Source: Gemmatimonadaceae bacterium
GTDB lineage: Bacteria > Gemmatimonadota > Gemmatimonadetes > Gemmatimonadales > Gemmatimonadaceae
Reading direction: 5' to 3'
Length of the DNA stretch: 64,000 nt
Assembly (NCBI GenBank): GCA_022843265.1
Contig: JALHNZ010000001.1
Span: 62,001-126,000, forward strand
The translations under genes and the position numbers were made by a program. Positions 5,523 to 45,118 of this stretch are shown in pieces. The notes beneath the pieces were generated by a model. The model made no database searches, was not told where the DNA came from, and worked only from the letters and a program-made list of their open reading frames with translations. The stretch's first letter is position 1. Every line of letters begins with the position of its first letter.

Positions 5523-5543
5523 CAGCCTGAGTATCGGCAGCGA

Positions 5544-9763: not shown

Positions 9764-9765
9764 CC

Positions 9766-10503
9766 ATGGCTTCATCTCGTCGCCGTGTGCGCGGCGGCAT
9801 TGGACGCTGGATCCGACGCGTGTTTGTTGTGATCGCAATCGGCCTGCTGCTTCCGTTGCCTGCATGTCTTCTTTTACTGGTGGTGCAGCCACCCACTACG
9901 GCCATGATGCTCACGCGCACGTGGCAGCGCTGGCGCGCGGATGAGGCACCGGCATATCCCAAGCGCACCGTTGTGTCGCGAGATCAAGTGTCACCCTCGC
10001 TCTATCGTGCCGTGCTCGCCGCGGAAGACGACCGGTTTTATCTGCACGATGGTTTTGACTTCACAGAAATTGAGAAGGCCATCGAGGTTCGTCGCACGGG
10101 TCGAGCCATGCGCGGCGCGTCGACGATCTCGCAACAGGTCGTGAAAAACGTCTTCCTGTGGGAAGGGCGCTCATGGATTCGTAAAGGACTGGAAGCCTAC
10201 TTCACACTCTGGCTTGAGGTCATTGTGCCCAAGGATCGCATTCTCGATCTGTACGTGAATCTCGCCGAGTGGGGCAACGGCATCTTTGGAATCGAGGCCG
10301 CCGCGCAGCAGCACTTCGGCAAGTCGGCCAAACAACTCACGCGCAACGAATCCGCACGACTCGCCGCCGTGCTTCCCGCTCCACGGCGCTGGTCACCAAA
10401 AGGCAGCGTGGCCAGTTCACGGGCGCCAGCCATTCAGTCGCGTATGCAGTACGCCGCGCCTCGGCCGGAAAACAGGCCCAAGAATCGTTCGACAACGCAA
10501 TAG
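9766..10503 (+). CDS. mtgA: Monofunctional peptidoglycan transglycosylase
   Basis: 245 residues with one membrane anchor (about 17-45). The GT51 domain polymerises lipid II into glycan strands in the periplasm. Motif 1 is AAEDDRFYLHDGFD with the catalytic Glu. Motif 2 is RGASTISQQVVKNVFL. RKGLEAYFTLWLE and VNLAEWGNGIFGIEAAA correspond to the remaining conserved motifs. No penicillin-binding domain follows, so this is the monofunctional MtgA type. The ATG comes 2 bases after the lpxL-like stop. The C-terminal 30 residues are basic and low in complexity. Confidence 0.95.
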   Translation: MASSRRRVRGGIGRWIRRVFVVIAIGLLLPLPACLLLLVVQPPTTAMMLTRTWQRWRADEAPAYPKRTVVSRDQVSPSLYRAVLAAEDDRFYLHDGFDFTEIEKAIEVRRTGRAMRGASTISQQVVKNVFLWEGRSWIRKGLEAYFTLWLEVIVPKDRILDLYVNLAEWGNGIFGIEAAAQQHFGKSAKQLTRNESARLAAVLPAPRRWSPKGSVASSRAPAIQSRMQYAAPRPENRPKNRSTTQ

Positions 10504-30599: not shown

Positions 30600-30631
30600 C
30601 CCAAACCCTTGAAAATCAACACGTTAAACAG

Positions 30632-30704
<73 letters not shown>

Positions 30705-30811
30705 AGACTACAGTTACCGCTCAATCTTACAACGACTTACGCCAGCGCGACAGGTCCGCGAAAGATCACTCGTGCACACGCGCGCGCGAAATGTGCACGA
30801 GCGGGCCAAAA

Positions 30812-30842
30812 AGAGCCCGACTCCACAGGGAAGCCGGGCTCT
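30812..30842 (-). terminator. Rho-independent terminator of the tape measure gene
   Basis: Stem AGAGCCCG/CGGGCTCT, followed on the minus strand by TTTTTGGCCC. It lies 20 bases after the stop codon of the tape measure gene and separates it from the tRNA. Confidence 0.85.
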
Positions 30843-30861
30843 CCTTACCGAGCAATCTTGA

Positions 30862-33800
30862 CTAAATGATCCTGCCGTTGATCAGCAGGGCGCTGCGTTG
30901 CCCCTTGATACCGAGATACCGGTCGACCTGATTCATCTGTTTCTTGCTCAGTGGCCGGTCGAACTCTTCAGCGGTGTCGCGCCCGGAGAGTGCCCCGCCC
31001 GCGCCCTTCCCCTCAACCAGCGCCACCAACCGCCGCAGCGAGGCGGCCGAGGACGCGGCATAGTCCACCAGCTGCAGCGCACTCGCTTCACTGATACTAC
31101 GCGCGCTGCGCACGGCCGTCGTTTCTTCGCCGAGCGTCGTGATCCGCTCAGGCGAGCCACCGCGATAGACCTCGGACGGGGTCCCGCCCACGCCGGCATC
31201 GCTGGTCGTGGGAGTCGTCGCCTTCTCCATCGTCGCGGCAATCAGCGCCTGGTACCGCGCGGCATAGATCGCATCGATCTGCGAGAACACATCCGCGCTG
31301 GCGCCAACGAGTGTGGCTTGGCGCTTCTGGTTGTCGCGCCATTCGTTCAGCTCGGTGACATCGGCGTCGAAGTTGCGGCCTTGTGACCGCTTGTACTGCA
31401 CATCGATGGAGCGCGTGAAGTCGGCCAGCGCGGCCGCGGCTTCGGCTTGCTGCTGATACGCTTTGGTGACCTCAGCGGCGGCCGCGGCCGCATCTTCCAT
31501 GGCGTGCAGCTCGCGCAGCCGCGCGCGGGTGCTCTCATCCACCGCGGACGCGATCTCTTGCGTGCGATCGATCTCTGTCTGTTTGCGCTCCAGCTCCCGC
31601 GCCTTGGCCGGATCCAAGGAACGGTAGACGTCCAGCATACGGCGATCGATATCCGCATTTTGCGACGCGGCCAGCTGCTGCTGTTCAGCGGCGGCCGCCG
31701 TGGCGCGCGCGACCGCTTCGAGCTCCTGCACGTATTGAATCTGCGTGATCATGCTGGCATCCGTCACGCCGGCGAGTTCGCGCCGATTCGCAATATCGAT
31801 GCGCATCTGTTCGGCTTCGATGGTGCGCCCTTCGGCCACGAGTTTGCGCACGCTCAGGTCTTCGACTTGCTGGCGTGTGGCTTCCGCGGCGGCCGCATCG
31901 AAGGCGCGCAGCGCGGCCGTCATTTCGTCGCCGATCAAAACTTTCAGCTGCTCGAACATCTCGCCGGTGATCGTGCCCGCTGCGACCAACGCTTGCGCCT
32001 GGGCGAGTGCGTTGTTCGCGCTGATGGTCTGTCCCGTAGCGAACGCGCCGCGTGTATCGCCGCTGAGCGACTGGCGCCGCGCGGTGATGTCCAGCCCGAA
32101 CGCCTCACGCTCGCGCGCTTGGGTCGCGGCGCGCTCAGCTTCCACGCGCAGACGTGCCGCCTCGGCGGCCTGCGTTTCGGCGACTTGCACCGCGCGCAGC
32201 TGCACGAGATACGGAGAATCGGCGCCGAACCGTGATTCAACCTCTGCGATTTCGCGCAGCTGCTGGAGCCGCAAGCGTTCCGCGTCGGCCGCCTCAGTCT
32301 GTCCGGCCGCCACCAGGCGACGCACGGTCAAGTCTTCGTTCAACCGAGCGAGCTCGCGGGCATTCTGTTCACGCAAAGCCGCCTCATTCGCGACGACCAC
32401 TTCGAGCACCCGCTCGAGCTCAGCCCGGTAGTTCGCGAACCCATTCTGTCCGCGCTTCGCGGCGAAGTCGGCAATCCCTGAGAGCTGCGCGATCTGCGCG
32501 CGCAAGTCATCGGCGCTGTCGAGCCGAAGGCCGCCCGTCTTGATGCCCGTCGCAGCGGCCGCGCCTTTGATCAGCTCTTCTGCGCGCGCGAGATTCTGCC
32601 GCAGTGCTCCGTCCAGCGACGTGCGCGCCACGATCGCGAAATCTTCCAGCGCACGGTTGAACGCGATGGCGGCCTCGGCCATCTGGCGCGCCTTCTCACG
32701 CGCTTTCGTGCCGAAGAGGTCCAGCGCGTCGGCCACCTGCGTAATGCCGCCCAGCACGGCGCCAGCGGCCCCCAGCGCGGCGAACGTGCCCGCTGCCCCC
32801 GCCTTGCCGCCGAGCGCATCGCCAAACGAAACGGATTCACCGACGCCGTTCTTAATCGACTGCGCACGCACGAGTCCGGTCGTAATGGACTGCGCACCCG
32901 TCGCCACTGCGGATACCGTTTTGCCCACCTCGCCGAACGCCTGGGCGATCAGCTGCGCAACGCCAAGAACGTCGCGCAAACCATCAACCCACGCGTTCGT
33001 ATCGGTGAGCGTCGACGGCGGGAGCGCCATGGAGCCCTTCACCTCCACGCCCAAGAGCGCATCGCGCACGCGCTTGAGTCGCTGGTATTCCGCGACCTGC
33101 TGCACGATCCCGGCAATGGTGAGCGGCGTTAGTGCGATGCCCGCTTTCGTCGCAGCCGTCAGCGCCTCAGCAACACCCGCCTGCAGTTCCTGTTGCTGAC
33201 GCAACTTGCTGTACGCGACGCCACCTTCGTTGAGCGCCGCGATCTGTGCGCGCAACTGCGCATTCTCGCGCAGCCGTGCCGCCTCCGACGTCGCCAGCGC
33301 GGCGGCGCCTTCCGTGATTGCGGCCGTGTATGCCTCTTGGCGCTTCATCGCGCGATCCGCGAGTTCGATCGTGAGCAGAACCCAACGCGCCTCATAATCG
33401 CGAATCGCGTCCCCTCGTTCTTTCGCCGCCTTCGCCGCGTCCTGCGTGGCCTTCGTTTGCCGCTCCGTGGCCTGCTCAAGCTGCCCGTTCATCATCGTCA
33501 AGGCCGTGGCCGTCTTGAGCATCCCTTGCGCTTTCTGATCCCCTTCGGCGAGCGCCTGGGCGAACGTGCGGTTCTTTTCGCTGGCGTCTTTCCACACGTC
33601 ATTCGCCGCCTTGAAACCATCGGCCGCGGCCTTCCCGCCCTGTCGGAACATCGCGAGCGCCATGCCGGCGGCTTCGATGTCCTTCACCATGTTCGGCGGG
33701 ACGTAGTTCGCTTTCGCGGCCTTCTCGGCTGCCTCGCGCTGTTCGATGATCGCTTTCGTCGTCTCGTTGATCGCGGGCGTCAGTTCTTTGTGGCTTTTGC

Positions 33801-34869
33801 GCCAGGCGTACACCGCGCCGGTAACAATCGTGACCGCGGCGATTGCGGCCCCAACAGGGCCAAGCAAGGCCGCCCACGCACCCGCCGCAGCGGCTCGCAT
33901 GAGCGTGAGCGCGCCCGAGAGCGACGTCACGGCCGCCGCCTGCGCTGCAAACGCCGAGATTGATGCGGCGCCACTCGGGGCGAGCAATGCGGCGCCCGCT
34001 TTCGTCGCGGCGAGCGTAAGACCACCGGCGCCGAGTGCGACCGATACGGCAACGACCGCGTCTTTGTATTCGAGCAAGAATTGCGCGGACACACCAATGG
34101 CCGCGGCAATGGCGCCCGTCGCAGACTTCGCTTCGTTGGAGCCTGCGACCACCATGCCGAACGCGTTGTTCAACTGCGTCAGCGCGGCGCCGATTGTTGT
34201 GGGGATTTCTTTCGCCAAGAGCGCGAGTTTTTCCTTCTGCGATTCTAGCGCGAGTGCCACTTGTCGGCCGCTCAACTCACCCGCGGCGCCCATCTCGCGC
34301 AGCTTGCCGATCGGGACGCCCAATCCGTCCGCAATTGCTTGGGCGACGGCGGGCAACTGTTCCATGATGGAATTCAATTCGTCGCCTCGCAGCACACCCG
34401 ACGCGAACGCTTGCCCCAGCTGCATGATGCCCGCCGCGGCGGCGCCCGTGCTCGCATTCGACAAGCGCGTCGCGTTGCTGACAGCTTCCGTAATGGAGAT
34501 CAGCTGCGTTTGCGACAAGCCGAGCGCGTCGGACGAGCGCGCCATACGCGCGTAGAGGTCGACCGTGGCGGCGTAGCTTTGCCGCGACGACTGCGCGATC
34601 TGGAACAACGCGCTTTGCGCTTTCGCAAACTCTTGGCTACTGCCGGTGACTTGCTTGAGACGGCCGTTCAGCAGGGTGTAGGAATCGACGGCTTCTGCGA
34701 GCCCTTTGACGCCGATCGCAATGCCGAGCGCGGCGCCGGCCTTTTTGAGCTCGGACACCGCACGCTGCGCGCTGCTCTCGATGCCCTTGAGCGAGCTTTG
34801 TACCTCTTGCGCGCCGCGCTTGGCGCCGCTGCTGTCGATCACCACGCCGAGTCGCGCGATGCGTGCCAT
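30862..34869 (-). CDS. Phage tail tape measure protein
   Basis: 1335 residues. Tape measure proteins set the length of a phage tail and help deliver DNA. The N-terminus (LGVVIDSSGAKRGAQEVQSS) and the following block with VDLYARMARSSDALGLSQTQ, GIMQLGQAFASGVLRGDELN and SIMEQLPAVAQAIADGLGVP form the conserved N-terminal domain of tail tape measure proteins. Two hydrophobic stretches follow at about 265-375 (with AAAAGAWAALLGPVGAAIAA) as membrane-active segments. The remaining 900 residues are almost entirely helical, Ala/Arg/Glu-rich coiled coil. No frame-shifted chaperone gene precedes it and no other tail gene is near. It is the only large structural gene in the element, alone behind a hairpin-rich intergenic region. 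Confidence 0.92.
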   Translation of the reverse strand: MARIARLGVVIDSSGAKRGAQEVQSSLKGIESSAQRAVSELKKAGAALGIAIGVKGLAEAVDSYTLLNGRLKQVTGSSQEFAKAQSALFQIAQSSRQSYAATVDLYARMARSSDALGLSQTQLISITEAVSNATRLSNASTGAAAAGIMQLGQAFASGVLRGDELNSIMEQLPAVAQAIADGLGVPIGKLREMGAAGELSGRQVALALESQKEKLALLAKEIPTTIGAALTQLNNAFGMVVAGSNEAKSATGAIAAAIGVSAQFLLEYKDAVVAVSVALGAGGLTLAATKAGAALLAPSGAASISAFAAQAAAVTSLSGALTLMRAAAAGAWAALLGPVGAAIAAVTIVTGAVYAWRKSHKELTPAINETTKAIIEQREAAEKAAKANYVPPNMVKDIEAAGMALAMFRQGGKAAADGFKAANDVWKDASEKNRTFAQALAEGDQKAQGMLKTATALTMMNGQLEQATERQTKATQDAAKAAKERGDAIRDYEARWVLLTIELADRAMKRQEAYTAAITEGAAALATSEAARLRENAQLRAQIAALNEGGVAYSKLRQQQELQAGVAEALTAATKAGIALTPLTIAGIVQQVAEYQRLKRVRDALLGVEVKGSMALPPSTLTDTNAWVDGLRDVLGVAQLIAQAFGEVGKTVSAVATGAQSITTGLVRAQSIKNGVGESVSFGDALGGKAGAAGTFAALGAAGAVLGGITQVADALDLFGTKAREKARQMAEAAIAFNRALEDFAIVARTSLDGALRQNLARAEELIKGAAAATGIKTGGLRLDSADDLRAQIAQLSGIADFAAKRGQNGFANYRAELERVLEVVVANEAALREQNARELARLNEDLTVRRLVAAGQTEAADAERLRLQQLREIAEVESRFGADSPYLVQLRAVQVAETQAAEAARLRVEAERAATQAREREAFGLDITARRQSLSGDTRGAFATGQTISANNALAQAQALVAAGTITGEMFEQLKVLIGDEMTAALRAFDAAAAEATRQQVEDLSVRKLVAEGRTIEAEQMRIDIANRRELAGVTDASMITQIQYVQELEAVARATAAAAEQQQLAASQNADIDRRMLDVYRSLDPAKARELERKQTEIDRTQEIASAVDESTRARLRELHAMEDAAAAAAEVTKAYQQQAEAAAALADFTRSIDVQYKRSQGRNFDADVTELNEWRDNQKRQATLVGASADVFSQIDAIYAARYQALIAATMEKATTPTTSDAGVGGTPSEVYRGGSPERITTLGEETTAVRSARSISEASALQLVDYAASSAASLRRLVALVEGKGAGGALSGRDTAEEFDRPLSKKQMNQVDRYLGIKGQRSALLINGRII

Positions 34870-35242
34870 ATGTGAGCCCTTTACGTCGTGAGGGTCGCTG
34901 CGGTCACACGACGCGCAGCCTATTTTCGCACGCTACGTCGCGCGCGCGCGCGTGCACAGAGGCAAGGGGGGCCATGGTGGCCCCCTCTGGGGGGCACCGT
35001 GCCCCCCGGTCGCCACTGATTGCAGCCTACAAAGGTTTCCCCGCGCGTTGCAGTGCTGCGACGCGCTGAGGGGGTCACGGCGACCCCCAACGGGGTGCGC
35101 CACGCATCCCCTTCGTTGCCCGACTGCCTGCTCTATGGGCAGGACGGCGCCAATGACGAAACGATCACCACATACGAGCAAGGGCACCCGCGAAGGTGCC
35201 CTGTCATCGTGCCAATGCGCACGAAATGTGCGCGACGTGCGC
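34870..35242. repeat. Intergenic array of five hairpins
   Basis: No gene is present. Five compact inverted repeats follow one another: 34967-34985 (GGGGGCCA/TGGCCCCC), 34989-35007 (GGGGGGCA/TGCCCCCC), 35070-35088 (GGGGGTC/GACCCCC), 35127-35143 (CCTGC/GCAGG) and 35181-35202 (AGGGCACC/GGTGCCCT). The first three share a G-run stem and a tiny loop. They lie downstream of the integrase and upstream of the tape measure gene, so they could terminate the integrase transcript, mark a packaging or replication site, or regulate the tape measure gene. Confidence 0.65.
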
Positions 35243-36589
35243 TTACGCCGAGCGCGATCGGGTGCCGAGCGATTCTTCGAGCGCGTGCACGGCCTGCTCT
35301 TGAATCGCGGGGCTGACGTGCGAATAAATCTCAAGCGTGACGTTCGTCGTCGAGTGCCCCAACCGATTGCTGACGATCTTCGGGTGCACGCCACTTTGCA
35401 GCAACAACGTAGCCATGCTGTGCCGCAACGAGTACAGCGAGAGGTCGGGAAACTCGGCGTCGCGCATCATCTGGCGTTCGGCCGCATGACGCGCCGCGAG
35501 CGCGGCCGTGTACACCGGCGAGCGCGACGGCACGGGTACGGGTGGCAACGTGCGACCGAGCATCAGCGCCGCGGCCTTCGCCAACATCGGCTTGAAATAG
35601 CGCTTGACGATCGTATCGAGATACAGCGGCTTCCCATACTCACCCGGAAACACGAGGTCGTTGTTTTCGTACTCGGCGCCGGCCAGCAACCGATAGCTGG
35701 CTTGCTCGGCTTTGTGCCGTTTCAGCATCTGCACCAGGTCATCGGGAATCGGGATCTGTCGCGCTTTCTTCGTCTTGGTTGGCGCCAACGCCCACGACGT
35801 ACCCGCGCCCCGTGCGAGGTCGGTCGGACGCGTGCGCACGAGCGCCCGCTGAATGCGCAGCACCTTGTTGTCGAAATCCGTGTCGCGCCAGAGCAAGCCC
35901 GCGAGTTCACCAGGACGACACCCGGTCCACAAGAGCGCCGCGAAGAGCACGCCGAACCGTTCGCCCTCGCACGCGGTGAGAAACGCGCGCGCCTGCAGTG
36001 GCGTCAAGACCGTCTGATCTTTTTTCAGATTACCCGCGACGGGTATCATCTCGCCATCAACCGGCGAAACGCGAATGCGTTTCAACTTGACCGCGAACGC
36101 GAGACGCGCACGCACGATGCGAAAGAGGCGGCTGACCGTCGCCTCGGCGAGCGGGGCGCCATCTTCGCGGCCGGCGTCGGACAGCTGGCGAAAGTGTTTC
36201 GCGAGTTGATCCGTTGTCACCTTCGAGAGCGGCGTGTGCGCCAGCATCGGGTTGCGCTTCGCGAGGTACAGCTCGCACAGCGCGAGATCATCTTGGCAGG
36301 TTCGGCGCGAGATTTCGCCTTTACGGCCCATGCGAATCTCCGTGTAAAACTCGCGCAGAAACTCGATGAACGGCTGCATGCTCCACTTCTGGCCCATGGC
36401 CTCGCCGCGCCCTTTCTTGACTTCCATTTCGCTGACCCACTGCGCGGCCAGCTTCGGATCCGTGAACGTTTTCGACACCGACGACCGCGAACCGTCCGGG
36501 CGCACGATGGACACGCGCGCTTGAAAGCTGCCGGGCTGACGCTCTACGACTGAGCCCGAGCGGCGACGTCGTGCACGAGGGCGCGTCAT
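35243..36589 (-). CDS. int: Tyrosine recombinase / phage integrase
   Basis: 448 residues. An N-terminal arm-binding region (SFQARVSIVRPDGSRSS, about 20-60) is followed by a core-binding SAM-like domain (about 70-170) and the catalytic domain. Catalytic residues seen: Arg225 in TGCRPGEL, a Lys near 274 in TKTKKARQIPIP, Arg389 with His390 in YSLRH, His412 in LGHS and the nucleophile Tyr422 in IYSHV. The usual first His of the HxxR box is Tyr386 here, a tolerated variant. It should catalyse integration and excision at the tRNA-Gly anticodon loop. Its start overlaps the preceding 77-residue gene by ATGA. Confidence 0.95.
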   Translation of the reverse strand: MTRPRARRRRSGSVVERQPGSFQARVSIVRPDGSRSSVSKTFTDPKLAAQWVSEMEVKKGRGEAMGQKWSMQPFIEFLREFYTEIRMGRKGEISRRTCQDDLALCELYLAKRNPMLAHTPLSKVTTDQLAKHFRQLSDAGREDGAPLAEATVSRLFRIVRARLAFAVKLKRIRVSPVDGEMIPVAGNLKKDQTVLTPLQARAFLTACEGERFGVLFAALLWTGCRPGELAGLLWRDTDFDNKVLRIQRALVRTRPTDLARGAGTSWALAPTKTKKARQIPIPDDLVQMLKRHKAEQASYRLLAGAEYENNDLVFPGEYGKPLYLDTIVKRYFKPMLAKAAALMLGRTLPPVPVPSRSPVYTAALAARHAAERQMMRDAEFPDLSLYSLRHSMATLLLQSGVHPKIVSNRLGHSTTNVTLEIYSHVSPAIQEQAVHALEESLGTRSRSA

Positions 36590-36819
36590 GCCGCCGCCTG
36601 CACTTCGGCCGCGACGTGCTCGGCGATCAACTGCAGCAATTCATCGGACAGCGGCAACCGCTCGCGATCGCGCCAGGTGCGCAGTTCCTTGCGAATGCCG
36701 GTGACGTCACAGCGGAACGCATCGCGGGCGAATCGGGCCAGACGTTCGGCCGACGCGATCGGCGTGTCAGCGCCCTGGCGACGGCGCGCGACGTGGCCAG
36801 CGGCGAAGAGGCGGCTCAT
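36586..36819 (-). CDS. Small protein coupled to the integrase
   Basis: 77 residues, basic N-terminal half (GHVARRRQGAD), then helices (LARFARDAFRCDVTGIRKEL; LSDELLQLIAEHVAAEVQAA). It overlaps the 89-residue gene by ATGA on one side and the integrase by ATGA on the other, so the three are made together. Size and position suit an excisionase or directionality factor, but no winged-helix signature is evident and the function stays open. Confidence 0.75.
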   Translation of the reverse strand: MSRLFAAGHVARRRQGADTPIASAERLARFARDAFRCDVTGIRKELRTWRDRERLPLSDELLQLIAEHVAAEVQAAA

Positions 36820-37085
36820 TGGTAGCGCTCCGTAAGGGTGGCGATGGCATACTGACAGAACGCCAGTAGGCTGATGTGTGAGAGGGGCGTGACGACGCCA
36901 TCGCTGAGCAGGCGCATCACAGCGGGCAGCATTTCCGCGTCGGCGCATGCACGATGCGCGCGAATGCGATTGTCCGGGGCGAAGACGGTCAACGCGTGGG
37001 TTTCGTGTCCTGGCCACAGCACCAGCGCGTCGCCCACGCGCGCGCGGATCGGACCGACCATCGGCTGCAGGACCGTCAGCACCAC
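36816..37085 (-). CDS. Small protein, first gene of the integrase operon
   Basis: About 89 residues starting at GTG 37085 (a second GTG lies 3 bases on). It contains VLTVLQPMVGPIRARVGDAL and LLAFCQYAIATLTERY at the end. The opening segment is similar to the 124-residue protein at 37361-37735 (VFDVLSPMIAPVVAHPGEVL), which suggests the two are paralogues flanking the repressor gene. Function unknown. It is divergent from the repressor, so their promoters share the 37086-37148 gap. The start is uncertain because the open frame reaches 37361. Confidence 0.6.
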   Translation of the reverse strand: MVLTVLQPMVGPIRARVGDALVLWPGHETHALTVFAPDNRIRAHRACADAEMLPAVMRLLSDGVVTPLSHISLLAFCQYAIATLTERYQ

Positions 37086-37148
37086 TTCGGGCTCAGGCTG
37101 TGGGGCACGTGATGGCGTGTGACGGGTGGCGGTTCTATCTTGCCTGCT

Positions 37149-37364
37149 ATGCTGATGCTCAGGGTGAAAAAGCTGCGGGAAGCCCGCAAACTCACACAGG
37201 TCGACGTCGCCCAGGCGGCGGGCGTGAGCGTGGTCCAGCTCAGCAAGATTGAGAACAACCACACTCGACGTATCGATCTCGATACGATCGACGGTCTGGC
37301 CCGTGCTCTGAACGTGACACCCGGCCGGTTGTTCGTGCGCGAGGAAGAGTCCGACTCGCATTAG
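37149..37364 (+). CDS. Cro/CI-type helix-turn-helix repressor
   Basis: 71 residues, almost wholly one XRE helix-turn-helix domain: VKKLREARKLTQVDVAQAAG then VSVVQLSKIENNH and a closing LARALNVTPGRLF. It is the only rightward gene of element B and is divergent from the integrase operon, as expected for a lysogeny-type regulator. Two near ATG codons exist (37149, 37155). Its 3' end overlaps the convergent 124-residue gene by 4 bases. A 34-bp palindrome 405 bases downstream may be one of its binding sites. Confidence 0.9.
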   Translation: MLMLRVKKLREARKLTQVDVAQAAGVSVVQLSKIENNHTRRIDLDTIDGLARALNVTPGRLFVREEESDSH

Positions 37365-37735
37365 ATGGCTCCCGTGGTGCGAGCGTCCGCATAGCGCGCG
37401 GCTGCAGCACGAAACGCGTTGAAGTTCGACTCGTAAGAGTTGGCGATCCGTTCAAGGATCCGATCTGCCTTTTCCTGAGTGGCGCGCTGCGCATCGTGGA
37501 GCGCGACACGGGCAGCGGGCACCCGCTCGCGGATTACCTCGGCGAGTAGCAACGGTAGAAGCTCCCCAACCTTCGGCGCTCCCGTGCGGACAACATCAGT
37601 TGTGCCGCGTCGCACGACGAGAATCGGTTCGCTTGCGTCTGCCTGGACGACGAGCACTTCGCCCGGATGTGCCACCACCGGCGCGATCATAGGCGAGAGC
37701 ACATCAAAGACGAACCGCTGGGCAACTGCTGTCAT
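37361..37735 (-). CDS. Unknown protein downstream of the operator-like palindrome
   Basis: 124 residues. The N-terminal part (VFDVLSPMIAPVVAHPGEVL) with alternating hydrophobics suggests a small beta domain, and the C-terminal half is a helix rich in Ala and Arg (RATQEKADRILERIANSYES). It is paralogous in its first 35 residues to the 89-residue protein of the integrase operon. It is the first gene after the 34-bp palindrome on this strand and so is the best candidate for repressor-controlled expression. Function unknown. Confidence 0.7.
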   Translation of the reverse strand: MTAVAQRFVFDVLSPMIAPVVAHPGEVLVVQADASEPILVVRRGTTDVVRTGAPKVGELLPLLLAEVIRERVPAARVALHDAQRATQEKADRILERIANSYESNFNAFRAAAARYADARTTGAI

Positions 37736-37768
37736 GGGGGAAACCTCGTGTTTGTGTCGACTGATGTA

Positions 37769-37802
37769 TTAAACGATGATTAAAGCTTAAATCATAGTTT
37801 AA
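37769..37802. promoter_or_regulatory. 34-bp palindromic operator in an AT-rich island
   Basis: Half-site TTAAACgATGATTaAAG faces its complement CTTaAATCATaGTTTAA, with two mismatched pairs, centred on AAGCTT. It lies in a markedly AT-rich stretch (37760-37802) 34 bases ahead of the leftward 124-residue gene, in otherwise GC-rich DNA. Promoter plus repressor operator is the simplest reading. Confidence 0.6.
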
Positions 37803-37974
37803 CCTCCCGCAAGTACCTGCGGTTGCCAGCTATCGGAGAAGGCGTGCGCCGGTTCATTCAGCCGACGCGTTTCCCTCTGTCAGTGATCGATCGGCGCGCG
37901 CGTCACGGGGTGCGCGCGTGCCAGATCGTGCGCGGACTGGCGCCCATGGGCTCAACCCATGGGCCAGTGACGGG

Positions 37975-38274
37975 TCAGTCGGTGTACAGCGTCATCGTCG
38001 CGTCGTTGAAGTCGGACGCGTTAATGATCACGAATCCGCTCGCGGACGATGCGTCCACAATGCGCACCGTATCGGGGTGCCGGCCGAGGCACGGCTCTTC
38101 GTGCGAGTCGGCAGTCAGCGCCGTGCGGCTGTGCGCGCGAATGGCATGCGGTGCACCGTTAACCATCTCGATGATGACCGGTTCGCCGTTGCTTTCGGTG
38201 ATCGGCGTTCCGGTGGCCAGGTCTACGGCGGCGAACACGCCGTCAACCGATCGGATCTCAAACTTTGGTACCAT
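37975..38274 (-). CDS. Unknown element B protein
   Basis: 99 residues, beta-rich, with FEIRSVDGVFAAVDLATGTP and VRIVDASSASGFVIINASDF. No known domain recognised. It could be a small structural or decoration protein by composition, but this is speculation. It begins at ATG 38274 and is separated from neighbours by short gaps. The 37803-37974 stretch upstream of the palindrome holds a CCCATGGG-type palindrome (CCCATGGGCTCAACCCATGGG) and no gene. Confidence 0.65.
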   Translation of the reverse strand: MVPKFEIRSVDGVFAAVDLATGTPITESNGEPVIIEMVNGAPHAIRAHSRTALTADSHEEPCLGRHPDTVRIVDASSASGFVIINASDFNDATMTLYTD

Positions 38275-38343
38275 GGTTCAGGGAGTTGTGAGTGGTACAG
38301 AGTTGTGCCCGCAGTCACGAGCACTAAGCGCCAGCATGGCCGG

Positions 38344-38883
38344 CTATCGGTTGTGGATCTCCATGGCCCGCATCCTTGCCTCGTGCTCGCGGTTGAGTTC
38401 CGCTCGCTGCTCTTCAATCTTTGCTTTCGCGGCGAGGAGCGGCGCCTCGGCGCGCTCTTTAGCGGCTTCGATTCTCGCGCGCTCTTGCTCGTCTAGGTAT
38501 TTGCGCGCCTTCGCCTCCATCTCTTGCTGACGTTGCTGCTGCGCCGCGCGACTCGCGGGCGTTTCCTCGGCGCCGAGCACCGTGATTCCACGGCCGATCT
38601 TGTCGGCGTGTTCGAGCAAGCTCGCGTCGTCGTTGATGCGCACATGGCCGAGCACGAACGAGCCGTCCGCGGCGCGCTGGTACAGCGGCTGATCTTCGAC
38701 CGGCAGATAGCGCAACGTCTCCAGGCGCGCGGGAAGTGCGCCCGTGCGCGCGGCGAGTGGCGCGACGAGCTCCTGCTCTGCGGCGAAGGCTGCACGGCGT
38801 GCCGCTTCGTCGTAGGCCGCTTTGTCGTGTTGCGCCTTGACCATCGCTTCGCGTTCGGCTGCGGCGGGATCGGGAATGTTCAT
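38344..38883 (-). CDS. Coiled-coil protein
   Basis: 179 residues. An Ala/Glu-rich helix (about 5-45) leads to a small globular middle (LRYLPVEDQPLYQRAADGSF, VLGHVRINDDASLLEHADKI) and a long charged coiled coil (about 110-179, with QQQRQQEMEAKARKYLDEQE). The architecture recalls phage scaffold or minor virion proteins, but no family is recognised. Start ATG 38883 has GGAG 8 bases upstream. It follows a 205-base gap (38884-39088) with no further gene. Confidence 0.75.
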   Translation of the reverse strand: MNIPDPAAAEREAMVKAQHDKAAYDEAARRAAFAAEQELVAPLAARTGALPARLETLRYLPVEDQPLYQRAADGSFVLGHVRINDDASLLEHADKIGRGITVLGAEETPASRAAQQQRQQEMEAKARKYLDEQERARIEAAKERAEAPLLAAKAKIEEQRAELNREHEARMRAMEIHNR

Positions 38884-39088
38884 CGGGTGTGCTCCATGCC
38901 ACAGTGAGAGAGGCGCGTGCCGGCGTGGCGGTTCGTCGCGCGCGGGTTGGTTACCTGCGTTCTGTGCTGTTTCGAGTCGCTTCGCGCACACCGTCGCGCA
39001 CGTGCGATTCGATCACCACCGCAACGCGTTGACGTCGCGTCGGTTGTGTGCGCGTGCATGCCTGTTGTGCTGGCAGGACGTCGCGTCT

Positions 39089-39289
39089 TCATCGGTTCAC
39101 GCTCCATGCCTCTGAGAGGGCGCGTACCTTCGACGCTAAGTCCGCTTGCTGTGCTTGGGCCGCGGCGGACCATTCGTCAGGGGTCATCGGCGCGCCGAGT
39201 CCAAAGAGCGCGCGGACATTGACGCCCTTCGCGCGGCGCACCGTCTGCTCCAACGCCTGGACGCGCTTCTTGAGGCGATCCATGGCCAT
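39089..39289 (-). CDS. Tiny coiled-coil protein 1
   Basis: 66 residues beginning MAMDRLKKRVQALEQTV, a short coiled coil, followed by GVNVRALFGLGAPMTPDEWS and a second helix. The RLxKRxxALE opening recurs in the next gene upstream. Its start overlaps the previous stop (TAATG), so it is coupled to the gene at 39289-39501. Confidence 0.65.
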   Translation of the reverse strand: MAMDRLKKRVQALEQTVRRAKGVNVRALFGLGAPMTPDEWSAAAQAQQADLASKVRALSEAWSVNR

Positions 39290-39501
39290 TAGTCACGCTC
39301 CTGCAGCCGTGTGAGTTCGGTGCGCGTCACCTTACCATCGTGCGCGACGTGCACCGCGTATTCGTGGTGCACGTCGCCAGCGCGCAGCCCTCGCTCAGCG
39401 TCATCATCGGCCATGCGGTGTGTCACGTGAACGTGCAGCTCTGCCTTCGCGAGCCGTGCCGCGTTCTCCAACGCGGTCAAGCGCTTTTCGAGTCGACCCA
39501 T
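39289..39501 (-). CDS. Tiny coiled-coil protein 2
   Basis: 70 residues beginning MGRLEKRLTALENAARL, then a His-rich middle (ELHVHVTHRMADDDAE; HHEYAVHVAHDGK). The His clusters could bind metal; no family known. It follows the 133-residue gene by 2 bases and overlaps the next, in a tight leftward string. Confidence 0.65.
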   Translation of the reverse strand: MGRLEKRLTALENAARLAKAELHVHVTHRMADDDAERGLRAGDVHHEYAVHVAHDGKVTRTELTRLQERD

Positions 39502-39503
39502 GG

Positions 39504-39905
39504 TCAAAAGTCCTCAGCCCGCAGCCTGCGCGCTGCGTTGACGCGCTCTTGCTGCACTGGTGTGTACTGGTCGAGCATGTCAACGCGTCCAGGCGGGACC
39601 CACTCGAACGTTCGGCGCTCCCACGTGTCCGCCCAGGCGACGAGTGCCGCGGGATTCTCTGGCGGTTCGTGGTCGGTGAAGTGCTCGAACAACCGCGCGC
39701 GCACCGTGTCGAGTAGCTGGTCGACTTCGGCGTAGTGCTGCTCTTGTAACGCGATCTCTTGGAAGCGCGCGACCTCGGCGGCGGTGAAACAGTTGACCAG
39801 CATGTGGAGCACCGCTACTTCGCCACGCTCGCGCACTGGCAGCGTCGCGTCGATGCCCGCACGTTGTTCGAGGAGCGCTAAGCGACGGCCTAAGGATCGG
39901 TGCAT
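39504..39905 (-). CDS. Unknown small protein with N-terminal coiled coil
   Basis: 133 residues from ATG 39905, preceded by GGAGGAACTGAGA (good ribosome-binding site), beginning MHRSLGRRLALLEQRAG. This is the same kind of opening as the two following tiny proteins. A helical part follows (LLDTVRARLFEHFTDHEPPE) and then VAWADTWERRTFEWVPPGRV. Function unknown. A GTG at 39920 is an alternative start. The start lies 2 bases after the stop of the gene upstream (TGAGAATG). Confidence 0.7.
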   Translation of the reverse strand: MHRSLGRRLALLEQRAGIDATLPVRERGEVAVLHMLVNCFTAAEVARFQEIALQEQHYAEVDQLLDTVRARLFEHFTDHEPPENPAALVAWADTWERRTFEWVPPGRVDMLDQYTPVQQERVNAARRLRAEDF

Positions 39906-39907
39906 TC

Positions 39908-40150
39908 TCAGTTCCTCCACGGTTCAGATTTACGCTCTTGCGCCGCGGCCGCTTCCAAGGCTTCGACGCGCTGCGCGAGTTCGCTCGATTCGATCAGCCG
40001 GCCGAGGATCGCGAGCAGGTTGCCGAGCTTTGACGCGTCGGTCGTGTCGAGTTCGCCCAGGCGCGCCGCGCGATAAATGCGGGCGAGTTCGCGGCGGACG
40101 CTCGGAATGCTGTCGAGCGGGCCGATGGTGACGGTGCCTCTACTGGCCAT
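39908..40150 (-). CDS. Unknown small protein with C-terminal coiled coil
   Basis: 80 residues: TVTIGPLDSIPSVRRELARI then YRAARLGELDTTDASKLGNL and a coiled-coil end (AQRVEALEAAAAQERK). The segment PSVRRELARIYRAARxGxLDTxDASKLxxLLxxL resembles small phage-encoded proteins found near terminase small subunits and thus may be a DNA-packaging accessory; I could not verify this. It is the first of four genes in a string just left of the iteron region. Confidence 0.65.
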   Translation of the reverse strand: MASRGTVTIGPLDSIPSVRRELARIYRAARLGELDTTDASKLGNLLAILGRLIESSELAQRVEALEAAAAQERKSEPWRN

Positions 40151-40310
40151 ATGGATGAGCCCGGTTCAGTGGGAGAGAGGGGGGGAGTATCGATCGACGC
40201 GTGGCGTTTCCCCTCTGAGCGTGGCGTGCAGGTCGCTCGAAAAACGGCGGTGCAGTGATGGCGGCGCGATACGAAAACGAACGAGAGGTTTCGCGGATCT
40301 TGTTGCTCAG

Positions 40311-40431
40311 CAGATGACGCAGATGACGCAGATGATACGATTCCCGGTAAACCACGTATGCGCGCACGCGTGTGCGCGCGTGTAGACGTCGATATGTAAA
40401 AACGCGTCATCTGCGTCATCTGCGTCATTCT
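40311..40431. repeat. Inverted pair of 9-bp iteron arrays beside the helicase gene
   Basis: Three tandem copies of CAGATGACG (the last degenerate) at 40311-40337 and three inverted copies (CGTCATCTG, the last degenerate) at 40405-40431 enclose 67 bases. Those 67 bases contain a further palindrome, GCGCGCAC-GCGT-GTGCGCGC. The right array runs across the helicase stop codon (40425-40427). Such nested iterons next to a D5/P4-type helicase are typical of a replication origin; a very large terminator is the alternative. Nothing else is seen in 40151-40310. Confidence 0.65.
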
Positions 40432-41810
40432 CCGTCGAACATTGGGGTGTTGATGCGCACTCCGAGGAACCCGCGGCCGTTCGGACGGCGGTGCATTTTG
40501 GCGCCGCGATCGACCAGATAGTCAGAGAGCGCGCGAGAGCTGAGCGGCTTCTCGCCTCGTGCGATCGCCCACTCGGACCAGCTCGCAAATAGCTTTGCAC
40601 TGGACGTCCATGACGTCGGGTCTTCGGTAACGCGATCCGCGAGCCATTGCCCCATCAAGTCTTCGCCGCCGACATATTCTGAGGCGGCCGCGAGCACGGA
40701 CGACGGCGGACAGAGGCCGATTCGCTGCCACTCGAGACAGCCCTCAATCGCCCAGGCGAGAATACCGGCCGCCTCCGCTTTCAATCGATCGGCGAGGTGA
40801 TGGTCGATGCTCGCCGGCTTCTGGTTGAACTGCACCACGTGTAGCCGTCTGCGTATTCCATCGTCGGCGCCAGCGAGACGCGGACGATGGTTGCCAGCGA
40901 GTAAAAGCTTGAACTGCGGATCAAACTCAAACTCGTCCTGCCGCATGAATCGCGCGGACTGTCGCTCTCCGCTCGACAGCTCCTTGATGCGCGCGGCCGC
41001 GAGTCGTTTCCCGGCTTCCGTTTCGGTAGCGACGACCATGCGCGCACCGGCGAGCCGCGCGATTTCGGTCGAGTGCGATTCGTTCTGACGCTCGGTGAAG
41101 GTCGAAATGTTTGCGGAGCGCGCGTATCCGCCGAGCACGTACGCCAGCGTGCGCAGAAACGTCGACTTGCCGGTACCGCCAGAGCCGTGAAAGAACACGA
41201 TAATGTGCTCACGAATGCTCCCCGTGAGGCAGTAGCCGGCCAGCCGACGCAGATACGCCATGGTCTCGACATCCTGTGCCGTTTGCTCGCTCAGGATGCG
41301 CTTCCACGTGGGGCAGTCGCCACCAGGCGTAGCGGCGGCGCGCATGGTGTGCACCACGGCACTTGTTGCGGGTTTCAGATCACCCGTTCGCAGATCGACA
41401 AAGAAACCGCCTGGCACACACAAGAGCATCGGATCAGGGTTCATGTGCGCCGGCGCAATCGCGTGCACGGGATCACATGAGGCCAACCGCACAATCGCTG
41501 CGATGGTTTTCGCGCTGAGCACGGACTGCGCGCGCGTTGCCGACCGTTTCAGTCCGGCCGCGTCAACTGCGTCTCTGGCAACCTGACGCGCCATGTCAAA
41601 GACGCGCGTGATCGAATCTTCGAGGAACACGCCATCGGTGTAGAGGAACCACCGGCCGTAGGCCGCGCAGTAGCGCACCGTCGACCCGTACCGTTCCGTG
41701 AACATCGTAGCGAGCCTATCCTCGGACAGATCGAGCGATTCAGCCGCGTCGGCTGTCGGAGGCGGCGCCATTGCATCGCCTGGCACAATCGCAAGTCGCG
41801 CTGTGGTCAC
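40425..41810 (-). CDS. D5/P4-family SF3 helicase (phage/plasmid primase family)
   Basis: 461 residues from a GTG that overlaps the preceding stop. The D5_N domain (about residues 20-190, with YCAAYGRWFLYTDGVFLED) comes first. The SF3 helicase has Walker A GSGGTGKST (about 209-217), Walker B-type MVVATET, and motif C FKLLLAGNHRPRLAGADDG with the arginine pair RRRLHVV. A C-terminal winged-helix-like segment (SSRALSDYLVDRGAKMHRRP) follows. The protein would unwind DNA to replicate the element. The catalytic primase domain present in longer P4 alpha-type proteins is absent here. Iteron-like repeats overlap its 3' end. Confidence 0.9.
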   Translation of the reverse strand: MTTARLAIVPGDAMAPPPTADAAESLDLSEDRLATMFTERYGSTVRYCAAYGRWFLYTDGVFLEDSITRVFDMARQVARDAVDAAGLKRSATRAQSVLSAKTIAAIVRLASCDPVHAIAPAHMNPDPMLLCVPGGFFVDLRTGDLKPATSAVVHTMRAAATPGGDCPTWKRILSEQTAQDVETMAYLRRLAGYCLTGSIREHIIVFFHGSGGTGKSTFLRTLAYVLGGYARSANISTFTERQNESHSTEIARLAGARMVVATETEAGKRLAAARIKELSSGERQSARFMRQDEFEFDPQFKLLLAGNHRPRLAGADDGIRRRLHVVQFNQKPASIDHHLADRLKAEAAGILAWAIEGCLEWQRIGLCPPSSVLAAASEYVGGEDLMGQWLADRVTEDPTSWTSSAKLFASWSEWAIARGEKPLSSRALSDYLVDRGAKMHRRPNGRGFLGVRINTPMFDGE

Positions 41811-42220
41811 GCAGCTTTCTCGATATGGGGAGTGGTGGAGCTGCGGTGCGCGTGCCACGCGTCGCGCAGCATGACGTCCGCGCGTAGGCGCTGCGCGGCG
41901 GTTGCACCGCGATACGTGAGGTAGGCCGCGAGCTCGCTGCGCATGCGCTCGCGGTCGTCGCCGAAGTGTGCGCGCAGATCAGCAACGAGCCCGCGCACTT
42001 CGACCAGTGTCACGGGCGGTTGCGCCGCATCGATGCACGCGGCTGCCGCGATCAATCCAAGTGCGCGATCCTGCAGCGGCACGTCCGCGCGATCCCGCCA
42101 GCGCTTGAGCAGATAGACGACGTTCTGCACGCCGAGCCCGAACGTGTCGCGCAGCCCGCGCGCAATGTCGAGGGCGCGCGTCGCGTGGTGTGGCGCATCG
42201 TTGCCGTCTGGTGTTTCCAT
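41807..42220 (-). CDS. Unknown helical protein upstream of the helicase
   Basis: 137 residues with HHATRALDIARGLRDTFGLG, VQNVVYLLKRWRDRADVPLQ and LVADLRAHFGDDRERMRSEL, predicted mostly helical. It overlaps the helicase start (GTGA) and the zinc-ribbon-like gene before it (TGATG), so it is made with both. It might be a helicase loader or a replication accessory factor; there is no known motif. Confidence 0.7.
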   Translation of the reverse strand: METPDGNDAPHHATRALDIARGLRDTFGLGVQNVVYLLKRWRDRADVPLQDRALGLIAAAACIDAAQPPVTLVEVRGLVADLRAHFGDDRERMRSELAAYLTYRGATAAQRLRADVMLRDAWHAHRSSTTPHIEKAA

Positions 42221-42492
42221 CACGACGCGCGCCTCTTGTGCGGGCGCTTGAGCGTCGCCGGCGACACTTCGTCGCGGTGCACAAGCGCCACTCGATAGAC
42301 TTTCCCACAGCAATCAGCGACGCGCACTCGGTGTGATGCGCGCGTCTCGGCCGCAGTCGTGCCGTGCAAATGGTGGCGGCCGCAGTAGATGCACCGGGGC
42401 ACCTCGATCGTGAGGCCGCTCGGGCTGAGTACGCCGAGCACCGTCGGCAGTTGACGGGTTTTTTGTTTCGCGCTAACTTTTCGATTCATCAC
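42220..42492 (-). CDS. Small protein with zinc-finger-like cysteines
   Basis: 90 residues. CIYCGRHHLHG gives a C-x2-C plus His pair, and a second CC pair lies 24 residues later (VADCCGKVYRV), so a zinc-binding fold of about 40 residues is likely. A basic tail (LKRPHKRRAS) follows. It is probably a small DNA- or RNA-binding protein; function unknown. It is coupled to the next gene by TGATG. Confidence 0.7.
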   Translation of the reverse strand: MMNRKVSAKQKTRQLPTVLGVLSPSGLTIEVPRCIYCGRHHLHGTTAAETRASHRVRVADCCGKVYRVALVHRDEVSPATLKRPHKRRAS

Positions 42493-42627
42493 AGACAGGA
42501 CACCTCGCGAACGCTCCCCCGGTCTCGTCCACCGCTCAGGGGAGCGTTCGTGTGTTCAGGGTTCGGATGGCGGAGCGGCGACGATACGCCAGCGATTCAG
42601 GGGCATGGTGCGGAACCGGGTGCGCGC

Positions 42628-42873
42628 TCAGGCGGCGATCTGGTGATCTGGCGAGGCGCTCCCTCCGAGCTCCCGCCATGACAGGAGCTTGCTCCGCGAT
42701 AGGCGGACGCGGCGCCCAACCTTCCAGTAGACACCGGGCGGGATATCGCCGTCTCGGATGGCTTTGGCGAGCTCCTTGGAACTCACGCCCAGCAGCGGCG
42801 CCGCTTCATCGATGGAGATGATCTCGCGTCCGCTGTGCGCGTCGACGGTTTGCGGAATGGTGATCTTGGGCAT
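42628..42873 (-). CDS. AlpA/excisionase-like DNA-binding protein 1
   Basis: 81 residues. IISIDEAAPLLGVSSKELAKAI then GDIPPGVYWKVGRRVRLSRSKLLSW is the arrangement of the MerR/AlpA helix-turn-helix seen in excisionases and phage regulators, with a recognition helix followed by a wing. It could direct excision or regulate the element. It lies directly after the second HTH protein, 3 bases apart. Confidence 0.85.
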   Translation of the reverse strand: MPKITIPQTVDAHSGREIISIDEAAPLLGVSSKELAKAIRDGDIPPGVYWKVGRRVRLSRSKLLSWRELGGSASPDHQIAA

Positions 42874-42876
42874 TGC

Positions 42877-43191
42877 TCAAGCCGCCCGCGTATCTGTGCC
42901 GCCGCTCTTGAGCCACGCGTCGAACGTGTCGCGGTCGAACCTGATGGTTCGTGCAATGCGCGTATGCGGGAGAATGCCTTGCCGGCAGTAGCGCCACACG
43001 GACGCGACGCTGACCCCGAGTCGCTGCGCGATATCGGGCGCGGACAGTGCGGGCGCTGAGTGATCAGGTTGGGGTCCGTTGGACCGCGGCGGCTCGTTTC
43101 GAGCGGCTTGACGTGCTTTGGCGGGGCGTGGGGCGCCGCTCGTCCTGCGCGAGATCGCGCGTTCGACGTTTAGTCCGCTAACACCGCTCAT
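42877..43191 (-). CDS. AlpA/excisionase-like DNA-binding protein 2
   Basis: 104 residues from ATG 43191. The C-terminal half is the HTH_17-type domain LSAPDIAQRLGVSVASVWRY, CRQGILPHTRIARTIRFDRD, TFDAWLKSGG. The N-terminal half is a basic, Pro/Ala-rich linker. An ATG at 43290 would add 33 residues with four Cys, which I cannot decide. It is the rightmost gene of element B and may control the leftward string or excision. Confidence 0.8.
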   Translation of the reverse strand: MSGVSGLNVERAISRRTSGAPRPAKARQAARNEPPRSNGPQPDHSAPALSAPDIAQRLGVSVASVWRYCRQGILPHTRIARTIRFDRDTFDAWLKSGGTDTRAA

Positions 43192-43597
43192 CGGTGCGCC
43201 CGTAGGTGCACCGGCAGGCCGGGAGATGAAACACTGCTGGTCGCATGGGCGACACTCCTCAGAAAGGGCGCTTGTTCGATCAGCATTCACCGATCAAACG
43301 CAGCCAACTACCACCATCGTTTGGCATGATGCAACAACTCGCAACTGATTGCAAGTCCCGCAAACTCGCTCATCACGCAAACGTGCAACGTGCATCACGC
43401 GACGGCGACTTCGCGCGCGCAACAATGTGCACGAGCGTCAAATAGCGACGCTGCAATGCGCTTGTTCCTTCCGGTTTCTTCCGGTTCTTTCCGTTCGCGC
43501 ACTCACGCGTGGCACGCGAGGCAAACACATGCAAACGAACGGATTACACACGTTCTGCGCGACGGGAAAGCACGGGAAAGGACAAGCACTGCGCTGA
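43192..43597. other. Right end of element B, with 10-bp repeats
   Basis: About 400 bases without a clear gene. Three tandem 10-bp units of the type TTCCGGTTTC lie at 43469-43498, and several CGCAAA/GCAAC motifs occur at 43330-43420. Position, 100-270 bases inside the attachment core, suits arm-type integrase binding sites and the promoter of the leftward HTH gene. Confidence 0.45.
43469..43498. repeat. Three tandem 10-bp repeats near attR
   Basis: TTCCGGTTTC, TTCCGGTTCT and TTTCCGTTCG-type units run end to end about 100 bases inside the right attachment core. They are candidate arm-type integrase sites. Confidence 0.45.
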
Positions 43598-43635
43598 TTG
43601 GGAAGCTGGCATTCTACCAACTGAATTACGCCCGC
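43598..43635 (-). repeat. attR: 38-bp copy of the tRNA-Gly 5' half
   Basis: Identical to 30667-30704, from the anticodon loop through the 5' acceptor strand of tRNA-Gly(CCC). To its left identity stops right at the loop (TTGGGAA, 43598-43604). This is presumably the original chromosomal 5' half, now cut off from its 3' half. Confidence 0.9.
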
Positions 43636-43733
43636 GAACTACACCCGCAGCGTGAAGGTAGGCGCACGATTCGCACGCAGCAAGGTCACGCACCGCGTTC
43701 TTCACGCGGCACGCGCCTCGCAGCCCTCACGCG

Positions 43734-44295: not shown

Positions 44296-44318
44296 GATGC
44301 GACTGCTATATAAACGAG

Positions 44319-44390
44319 AGCCACAGATCGGGATTGAACCGATGACCGCCCGATTACGAATCGGGTGCTCTACCACTGAGCTACTGTGGC
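44319..44390 (-). tRNA. tRNA-Thr(CGT)
   Basis: Acceptor GCCACAG/CTGTGGC, anticodon stem CCCGA/TCGGG around TTCGTAA (anticodon CGT), T-loop TTCAATC. Last gene of a leftward operon of seven tRNAs; no CCA encoded. Confidence 0.96.
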
Positions 44391-44485
44391 GAGGATCGGG
44401 CGAACCCGACCACCAACAAGGTGCTGCCTAAGGTGCGAACACAGGTACAGGGCGAAGTCTCTCGCCACAACACAACACGATGGTA

Positions 44486-44567
44486 TGCCCTGGCGCGGAC
44501 TCGAACCGCGAAGCCTTTCGGCACCACCCCCTCAAGATGGCGTGTCTACCAATTTCACCACCAGGGC
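44486..44567 (-). tRNA. tRNA-Leu(GAG)
   Basis: 82 nt with the long variable arm of class II tRNAs (GTGCCGAAAGGCTTC region). Acceptor GCCCTGG/CCAGGGC; loop TTGAGGG gives anticodon GAG. Confidence 0.95.
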
Positions 44568-44590
44568 AATCACCTGCAGACTCTAACCTA

Positions 44591-44665
44591 CGGGAGCGAC
44601 GGGGCTCGAACCCGCGACCTCTCGAGTGACAGTCGAGTGCTCTAACCAAACTGAGCTACGCCCCC
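44591..44665 (-). tRNA. tRNA-Asp(GTC)
   Basis: Acceptor GGGGGCG/CGCTCCC (one G-T pair), anticodon stem CTCGA/TCGAG around CTGTCAC (anticodon GTC), discriminator G as expected for Asp. Confidence 0.95.
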
Positions 44666-44694
44666 AACATTTCCTGCGCCTGCACCTGCTACAG

Positions 44695-44766
44695 TAGCCT
44701 CAACGGGAATCGAACCCGTCTCTCCACCTTGAAAGGGTAGCGTCCTAACCGATAGACGATGAGGCC
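44695..44766 (-). tRNA. tRNA-Glu(TTC)
   Basis: Acceptor GGCCTCA/TGAGGCT; loop CTTTCAA between CTACC and GGTGG gives anticodon TTC. T-arm ACGGG-TTCGATT-CCCGT. Confidence 0.95.
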
Positions 44767-44823
44767 AATCGCGGCGGTGTCGCCAATCTGTCCGACCCAC
44801 CTTCCAGCATAGCCTTCTAGCAT

Positions 44824-44894
44824 AGCGGTAACGGGATTCGAACCCGTGTTCCAGCCTTGAGAGGGCCGTGTCCTAGTCCCCTAGACGATACCGC
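44824..44894 (-). tRNA. tRNA-Glu(CTC)
   Basis: Acceptor GCGGTAT/TTACCGC with the seventh pair mismatched (T-T); loop CTCTCAA gives anticodon CTC. T-arm ACGGG-TTCGAAT-CCCGT. Confidence 0.93.
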
Positions 44895-44940
44895 CAAACG
44901 ACACCTGCAAACCTGCCAAGCCCAACAATATAAACCGGTA

Positions 44941-45013
44941 CAGGCCCGGAGGGAATCGAACCCCCAACCGCCGGTTTTGGAGACCGGTGCTCTACCAATT
45001 GAGCTACGGACCT
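44941..45013 (-). tRNA. tRNA-Trp(CCA)
   Basis: Acceptor AGGTCCG/CGGGCCT, anticodon stem CCGGT/ACCGG around CTCCAAA (anticodon CCA), discriminator G as for Trp. Confidence 0.95.
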
Positions 45014-45043
45014 AGACGCGACGCACAGGCCGCGAACTGCCAG

Positions 45044-45118
<75 letters not shown>

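Follow-up and report, generated by a model that had tools for sequence, protein, structure and literature searches.

The window analysed here, a 64,000-nucleotide stretch of a Gemmatimonadaceae genome, holds a 12.93-kb element (30667-43643) integrated at tRNA-Gly(ccc) between direct repeats (table 1). In two genomes of the same genus (L253 and L256) DNA resembling both flanks meets uninterrupted, and this empty site identifies the 12.93-kb stretch as a mobile element. In addition to the integrase, the helix-turn-helix proteins and the tape-measure protein of table 1, a repressor-like protein is encoded, and the comparison of 18 open frames, some of them overlapping, with PHROGs recognised no capsid, portal or terminase. 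A tape-measure gene without these recognised partners suggests that the element is satellite-like, with a putative dependence on a helper. Carrying such a gene, the element may be a satellite which borrows its helper's tail or alters the size of that tail. Seven tRNA genes (Thr, Leu, Asp, Glu, Glu, Trp, and His) lie at 44318-45117, just outside the element.

Table 1. Features of the integrated element and of the repeat region at the end of its helicase gene (positions in the window)
Feature	Coordinates	Strand	Basis or content
Left attachment repeat	30667..30712		46-nt direct repeat, 96%; overlaps tRNA-Gly(ccc) 30631-30704
Tail tape-measure protein, 1335 aa	30862..34869	-	phrog_339 etc.; TMP_3
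Tyrosine integrase	35243..36589	-	Phage_integrase; phrog_1
Distal, inverted iteron array	40315..40339	+	TGACGCAGA x2 (40315-40323, 40324-40332) + partial TGATACG
TTTACCGGG-type stretch (helicase-strand reading), core to distal array	40340..40352		TAAC/TTACC-like motif in many relatives
Core, 32 bp, strictly alternating purine-pyrimidine, CG-rich	40353..40384		Centre 2.5 bp off dyad centre
A/T-containing stretch, ~18 bases, core to helicase-proximal array	40385..40402		Sequence; position compared by eye among relatives
Helicase-proximal iteron array	40403..40428	-	TGACGCAGA x2 (40419-40427, 40410-40418, minus strand) + partial TGACGCG; helicase stop codon inside
D5/P4-family (SF3-type) helicase, presumed origin-binding initiator, 477 aa	40425..41858	-	Pfam D5_N + DUF5906; TIGR01613 253.6 bits
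Excisionase-like helix-turn-helix protein	42628..42873	-	TIGR01764; phrog_66
Excisionase/regulator-like helix-turn-helix protein	42877..43290	-	phrog_66; TIGR01764
Right attachment repeat	43598..43643		Partner of 46-nt direct repeat

Where the helicase gene ends, copies of a 9-bp iteron, TGACGCAGA, face inverted copies of themselves across a central tract. The initial annotation had counted three repeats against three; two perfect copies per side were found, but the third is partial on either side, so that each array consists of two perfect units and one partial unit. In plus-strand register the distal side reads GCAGATGAC at 40310-40318 and 40319-40327, then GCAGATGAT at 40328-40336, and the inverted side reads GCGTCATCT at 40404-40412 and 40413-40421, with a partial copy up to 40428. 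Read on the helicase strand, the last codons are followed by TGACGCAGA TGACGCAGA TGACGCG, about 18 bases with A/T, the 32-base alternating tract, GTTTACCGGGAA, and the inverted array. As first described, the helicase stop codon (TGA, 40425-40427) falls within the helicase-side arm and a GC-rich palindrome, GCGCGCAC/GTGCGCGC, occupies 40360-40379 between the arms. The proposed 27-bp stem with a 67-base loop, on the other hand, includes positions that do not pair; the perfect stem measures 22 bp (40314-40335 with 40407-40428) and encloses 71 nt. The dyad score was reached by none of 50 shuffles of the 300-bp region and the alternating run by none of 100. Allowing up to three mismatches, the 17-mer occurs four times in the window, all at the dyad (0.34 expected), and a whole-genome search placed its exact form at a single site in the genome. 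GC skew, which had been put forward as a check, displays no clear sign change at the dyad.

The neighbouring gene encodes an SF3-type helicase; its matches to D5_N, DUF5906, and TIGR01613 indicate a D5/P4-family protein. Its structure model (pLDDT 83.7) aligns with the SaPI5 primase-helicase (7ola/7om0) with Z of 29.0 and 28.9 over 388-394 residues, spanning residues 32-473; against 7ola_C, 388 residues were aligned at Z 29.0 and rmsd 4.5. A profile match to 7ola was also obtained (E 2.5e-17). The C-terminal domain, at about residues 401-470, looks winged-helix-like. No primase part was recognised in the 477-aa protein, nor any match in the open reading frames 41807-42313 and 42220-42492, with the Pfam, PHROGs, and TIGR profiles. 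Among relatives, iteron letters correlate with the helicase C-terminus (rank correlation 0.30, permutation p 0.027, n = 21 clusters, iterons picked by eye); corrected for relatedness, the partial correlation in the same 21 clusters is 0.11 (permutation p 0.16), and the link is inseparable from general relatedness. In a post hoc comparison, C precedes TGACG where the C-terminal domain of the helicase carries a [KR]WRN motif (L144, L161, L185, L215, L217, and L230), and mostly G or A stands at that base beside other helicases with a TGACG- or TGGCG-type unit.

The relatives were collected by a helicase-based search which disregarded repeats and covered viral contigs, phages, plasmids, and the genomes of 198 relatives. 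The viral part holds the best 80 of 587 relatives, and thus the sample leans to close relatives; four of its 100 loci (L073, L084, L100, and L126) had been found via the repeat and not the helicase. These loci form 35 clusters at 85% helicase identity, and the 300 bases around each helicase stop were scored. Left out before the 35-cluster count were L150 (the window itself), L159 (same genome, E-value, identity, and flank as L152), L155 (only a terminator-like 17-bp hairpin with a short loop), L156 (N runs), and L157 (no tblastn match). Loci L241-L250 were judged separately, outside the 35, and only L244 and L247 enter the 31-locus set used for core centring. Loops of 25-130 were allowed in the comparison of the 35 clusters with 823 control windows taken from these loci, and loops of 40-100 in the tests of other gene ends, centring, and shuffles, where nothing was left out and the shuffles numbered only 50 and 100.

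A dyad score of at least 10 was found in 29 of the 35 clusters, against 67 of the 823 control windows and 8 of 105 sites where another long open frame ends. Alternating runs of at least 12 follow the same pattern (30/35, 45/823, and 6/105, respectively), and both features coincide in 25 clusters, four control windows, and none of the 105 other gene ends. When the window was set aside together with the two clusters that hold the repeat-found loci, a hand count gave both features in 22 of 32. Scored by single locus, the dyad is present in 89 of 99, one of the 100 having too short a flank. At 26 of 31 dyad loci no more than 12 bp separate the core centre from the dyad centre, against about 8% expected. 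A strong dyad is absent from clusters L141, L148, L152, L153, L217, and L228, and a long alternating run from L145, L146, L148, L154, and A2. Among ten further, mostly more distant relatives, the layout was seen by eye in four (Henu3, a Bacillus plasmid, a Planctomyces plasmid, and Sfi21) and was missing in six (Streptomyces phage Samy, Arthrobacter BaileyBlu, Gordonia GMA4, a Thermaerobacter, a Streptomyces, and a Parageobacillus plasmid). The layout is common to most close helicase relatives, but it is not universal.

Conservation of the repeats had been named as a check on the initial annotation. The opposed layout and its position are kept in most close helicase relatives, but the iteron letters differ: TGACGGATG, TGACGCATG, TGGCGGATG, CGAAGGGAT, AGAACGGAT, and AACTGTCCC all occur. 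Even one cluster of 45 close helicases contains several iteron types, and many loci carry the matching change in both arms. What persists is the opposed orientation, in most cases with 2-3 units of 9-10 bp per side and a gap of about 40-70 bp. The alternating core persists as well and is often followed by a TAAC/TTACC stretch. In low-GC relatives the core consists of A+T: phage A2 and a Bacillus plasmid have a (TA)n-like core, and Sfi21 has a AAATAAAT-like one. Judged from these sequences, the comparison suggests that the geometry is conserved, not the letters or AT-richness.

Several loci deserve separate mention. In L142 (2132-2420) one helicase gene is followed by two tandem dyad-plus-core units whose iteron letters differ (a GGTCACAGAT type and a GGTTACGCAT type); the origin may have been duplicated and be passing from one iteron type to another. 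The longest alternating run seen, 48 bp, lies between opposed CGGATCGAA iterons in a same-family relative (L158, 2388-2690, minus strand, helicase sense). Directly past the dyad, several relatives carry a gene (L073, about 5343-5824; L144, 7464-7931) that is annotated as a polynucleotidyltransferase in Acidithiobacillus phage AcaML1; it has a LLALDLGSTLGWAVR-like start in Acetobacteraceae, appears RuvC/RNase H-like by eye, and matched no Pfam family at E 0.001. Helicase, origin, and nuclease may thus form a module.

Origins annotated by depositors are found at the corresponding place in two phages. In Lactobacillus phage A2 (AJ251789.2) the rep_origin (32208-32717) overlaps the end, at 32235, of a homologous primase-helicase gene and contains opposed ACGGGAGGAT repeats; unlike the dyad in the window, it has an A+T core and more iterons, irregularly spaced. 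In Streptococcus phage Sfi21 (NC_000872) the "origin of replication" (34487-34784) extends across the end, at 34515, of a primase gene that is distantly related, and opposed TTAGTTACT repeats flank its core, which again differs in being A+T; the helicase is 19% identical over the aligned part. A closer helicase (45% identical) belongs to AcaML1 (JX507079), where opposed TCTGACGGG iterons and a core, CGTACACGCGCGCGCGCGTA, occupy the gp17-gp18 gap. Its helicase gene is longer (2301 nt), the polynucleotidyltransferase gene follows, and no origin feature is among the 19 annotated features of the inspected stretch.

The nearest described systems are the SaPI and PICI islands. According to PMC6092414, the PICI origin is the region directly 3' of the initiator gene, the Escherichia coli examples always place an AT-rich region between two sets of iterons, one of them, when tested, replicates a plasmid, and the plan is called unique to phage-inducible islands (paper of 2018). 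According to PMC9894130, two helicases are directed head to head by the opposed repeats of SaPI origins, as is also the case in SV40. The dyad resembles these origins in its position immediately 3' of the initiator gene, with the stop codon inside the first array, in its two opposed sets of short iterons, and in an initiator predicted to share the SaPI Rep fold (7ola/7om0); a specific attachment site and an integrase are further traits that the element shares with PICIs. The core sets it apart: the PICI cores described are AT-rich, whereas that of the window is CG-rich and strictly alternating, with short A/T stretches only beside it.

The main rival to an origin is a helper site as in phage P4. 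There crr is annotated just 3' of the alpha gene, each 120-bp repeat holding opposed 8-bp iterons, two in either orientation and a further direct one, and the rep_origin is annotated at 9086-9809, beyond the 5' side of alpha. By analogy, the dyad would be a helicase-binding site required in cis, and replication would start from another site of the element. P4 differs, however, in that its crr comprises two 120-bp copies and its origin lies apart, and the alternating core is absent from the crr spacer as read from its sequence. Moreover, no second iteron cluster was found in the 12.9-kb element (30667-43643 searched), the dyad being the sole one, and in A2 and Sfi21 it is the annotated origin itself that occupies the place of the dyad. 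We therefore consider a crr-like role improbable. The initial annotation had already proposed an origin by reference to P4-type replicons; the A2 and Sfi21 origins agree with the proposal, but the single site fits SaPI/PICI origins better than the two separate sites of P4.

The folding of the region could also be taken at face value, as a stem-loop formed by the helicase transcript at its 3' end and acting as terminator, mRNA protector, or attenuator. Single-strand folding is indeed very stable as RNA (z = -7.8; DNA, z = -5.7), and the dyad comes directly after the stop codon. Yet no intrinsic terminator (GC stem and T run) matched at the hairpin within 39900-40600, where the single match lies elsewhere, and the arms are built of tandem 9-bp units (9-10 bp among relatives). 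Over 29 dyads, the non-Watson-Crick pairs comprise 30 A-C, 20 G-T, and 101 other combinations, so that the G-U-compatible type is not in excess on the transcript strand. Because of the tandem units and the lack of G-U bias at imperfect positions, the arms, as sequences, point to protein-binding DNA rather than an RNA stem; the stem-loop originally drawn is probably wrong, and we give an RNA function little chance.

Dispersed repeats required attention since a scan of 84,980 species returned 91 stretches in which these arms are spaced as in a hairpin, many of them multi-copy, and similar hairpins occur in three viral contigs. Of the 91, 80 were fetched, and most proved to be dispersed repeats, many multi-copy (Bacteroides, Chloroflexi, Planctomycetes, and others). 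A (GATGACGCA)n repeat of this kind, known from many bacterial genomes, might have landed beside the helicase gene by chance. Against this, the repeat has a single site in its own genome, and relatives with other iteron letters keep the layout. A helicase relative was present in only 4 of the 86 loci fetched by two repeat scans, all in genera of Acetobacteraceae; in these four the dyad lies 47-51 bases past the helicase stop and the core is CG-alternating (4/4). A repeat search of 60 genomes gave matches in 19, the genome of the window included, with one or two per genome elsewhere; the two inspected (L028 and L030) are not hairpins. A chance landing is thus very improbable. Least credible of all is an operator, at which the helicase or another regulator would bind the opposed repeats and repress the helicase or downstream genes with no replication start: opposed repeats beside a gene are a usual operator form and the element encodes helix-turn-helix proteins, but the dyad sits at the 3' end of the helicase gene, 39900-40600 has no sigma-70-like promoter match, and relatives with different downstream sequence keep the dyad centred on the core.

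Within L050-L129 (e.g. L054-L058, L063, L101, L110, L127, and L128) the hairpins gathered by these scans are dispersed GACGCAGATGA hairpins, many multi-copy and MITE-like, often with conserved flanking letters; they occur in Bacteroides, Chloroflexi, Planctomycetes, Gemmiger, and others, with no link to helicase genes. The viral contigs carry intergenic hairpins of the ATCCGCAGATGACGC...GCGTCATCTGCGGAT type (L046, 1500-1610, 9290-9395, and 11530-11640; L047, 3150-3255; L048, 9960-10095). The three in the 14-kb contig L046 have a common GCGCTTCGCGCGAAGCGC loop, and L048 has a similar one. A mobile (GATGACGCA)n hairpin is associated with GxxExxY/PDDEXK_3 genes. This link was considered for the window and rejected, as PF13366 had no match in its genome and the repeat is single-copy there.

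Overall, we suggest that the dyad is very likely the replication origin of the satellite-like element, of SaPI/PICI type, with two helicase hexamers loading head to head. This reading draws on the layout kept among relatives while the iteron letters change, on the annotated origins of A2 and Sfi21, on the match of the helicase model to SaPI5, on the statements of PMC6092414 and PMC9894130, and on the dyad being the sole iteron cluster of the element. The helicase would bind both opposed 9-bp arrays through its C-terminal domain, and two head-to-head hexamers would assemble, one on either side of the core. After excision, the DNA would open at the core and bidirectional replication would start there. 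Melting would not be expected at a GC-rich core, and this counts against an origin. The A/T-containing stretch between core and helicase-proximal array is a candidate for melting; as a guess, the CG-alternating core could open under strain or serve as a Z-DNA-prone hinge.

Origins with opposed iterons 3' of a primase-helicase gene are already known. What appears new, as far as the open-access literature was searched, is that a CG-alternating core, precisely centred, takes the place of the AT-rich region and that the plan extends over several phyla, in phages and plasmids as well as in a satellite-like element. More tentatively, and with doubts that outweigh our confidence, one may envisage that origins of phages, plasmids, and satellites form a widespread class in which AT-richness as such is replaced by a central alternating purine-pyrimidine tract, made of (CG)n where the host is GC-rich and (TA)n-like where it is AT-rich; head-to-head D5-type helicases would twist the tract between the arrays, and a change of helical form would absorb the twist or seed opening.

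If the dyad is an origin, the plan described for phage-inducible islands would extend to phages, plasmids, and a satellite-like element of Gemmatimonadaceae. It would also provide a rule for finding origins in uncharacterised elements, namely to inspect the DNA directly 3' of a D5/P4-family helicase gene. Finally, the many natural pairs of helicase and iteron could be used to decode how these helicases read their repeats and how GC-rich sites are opened.
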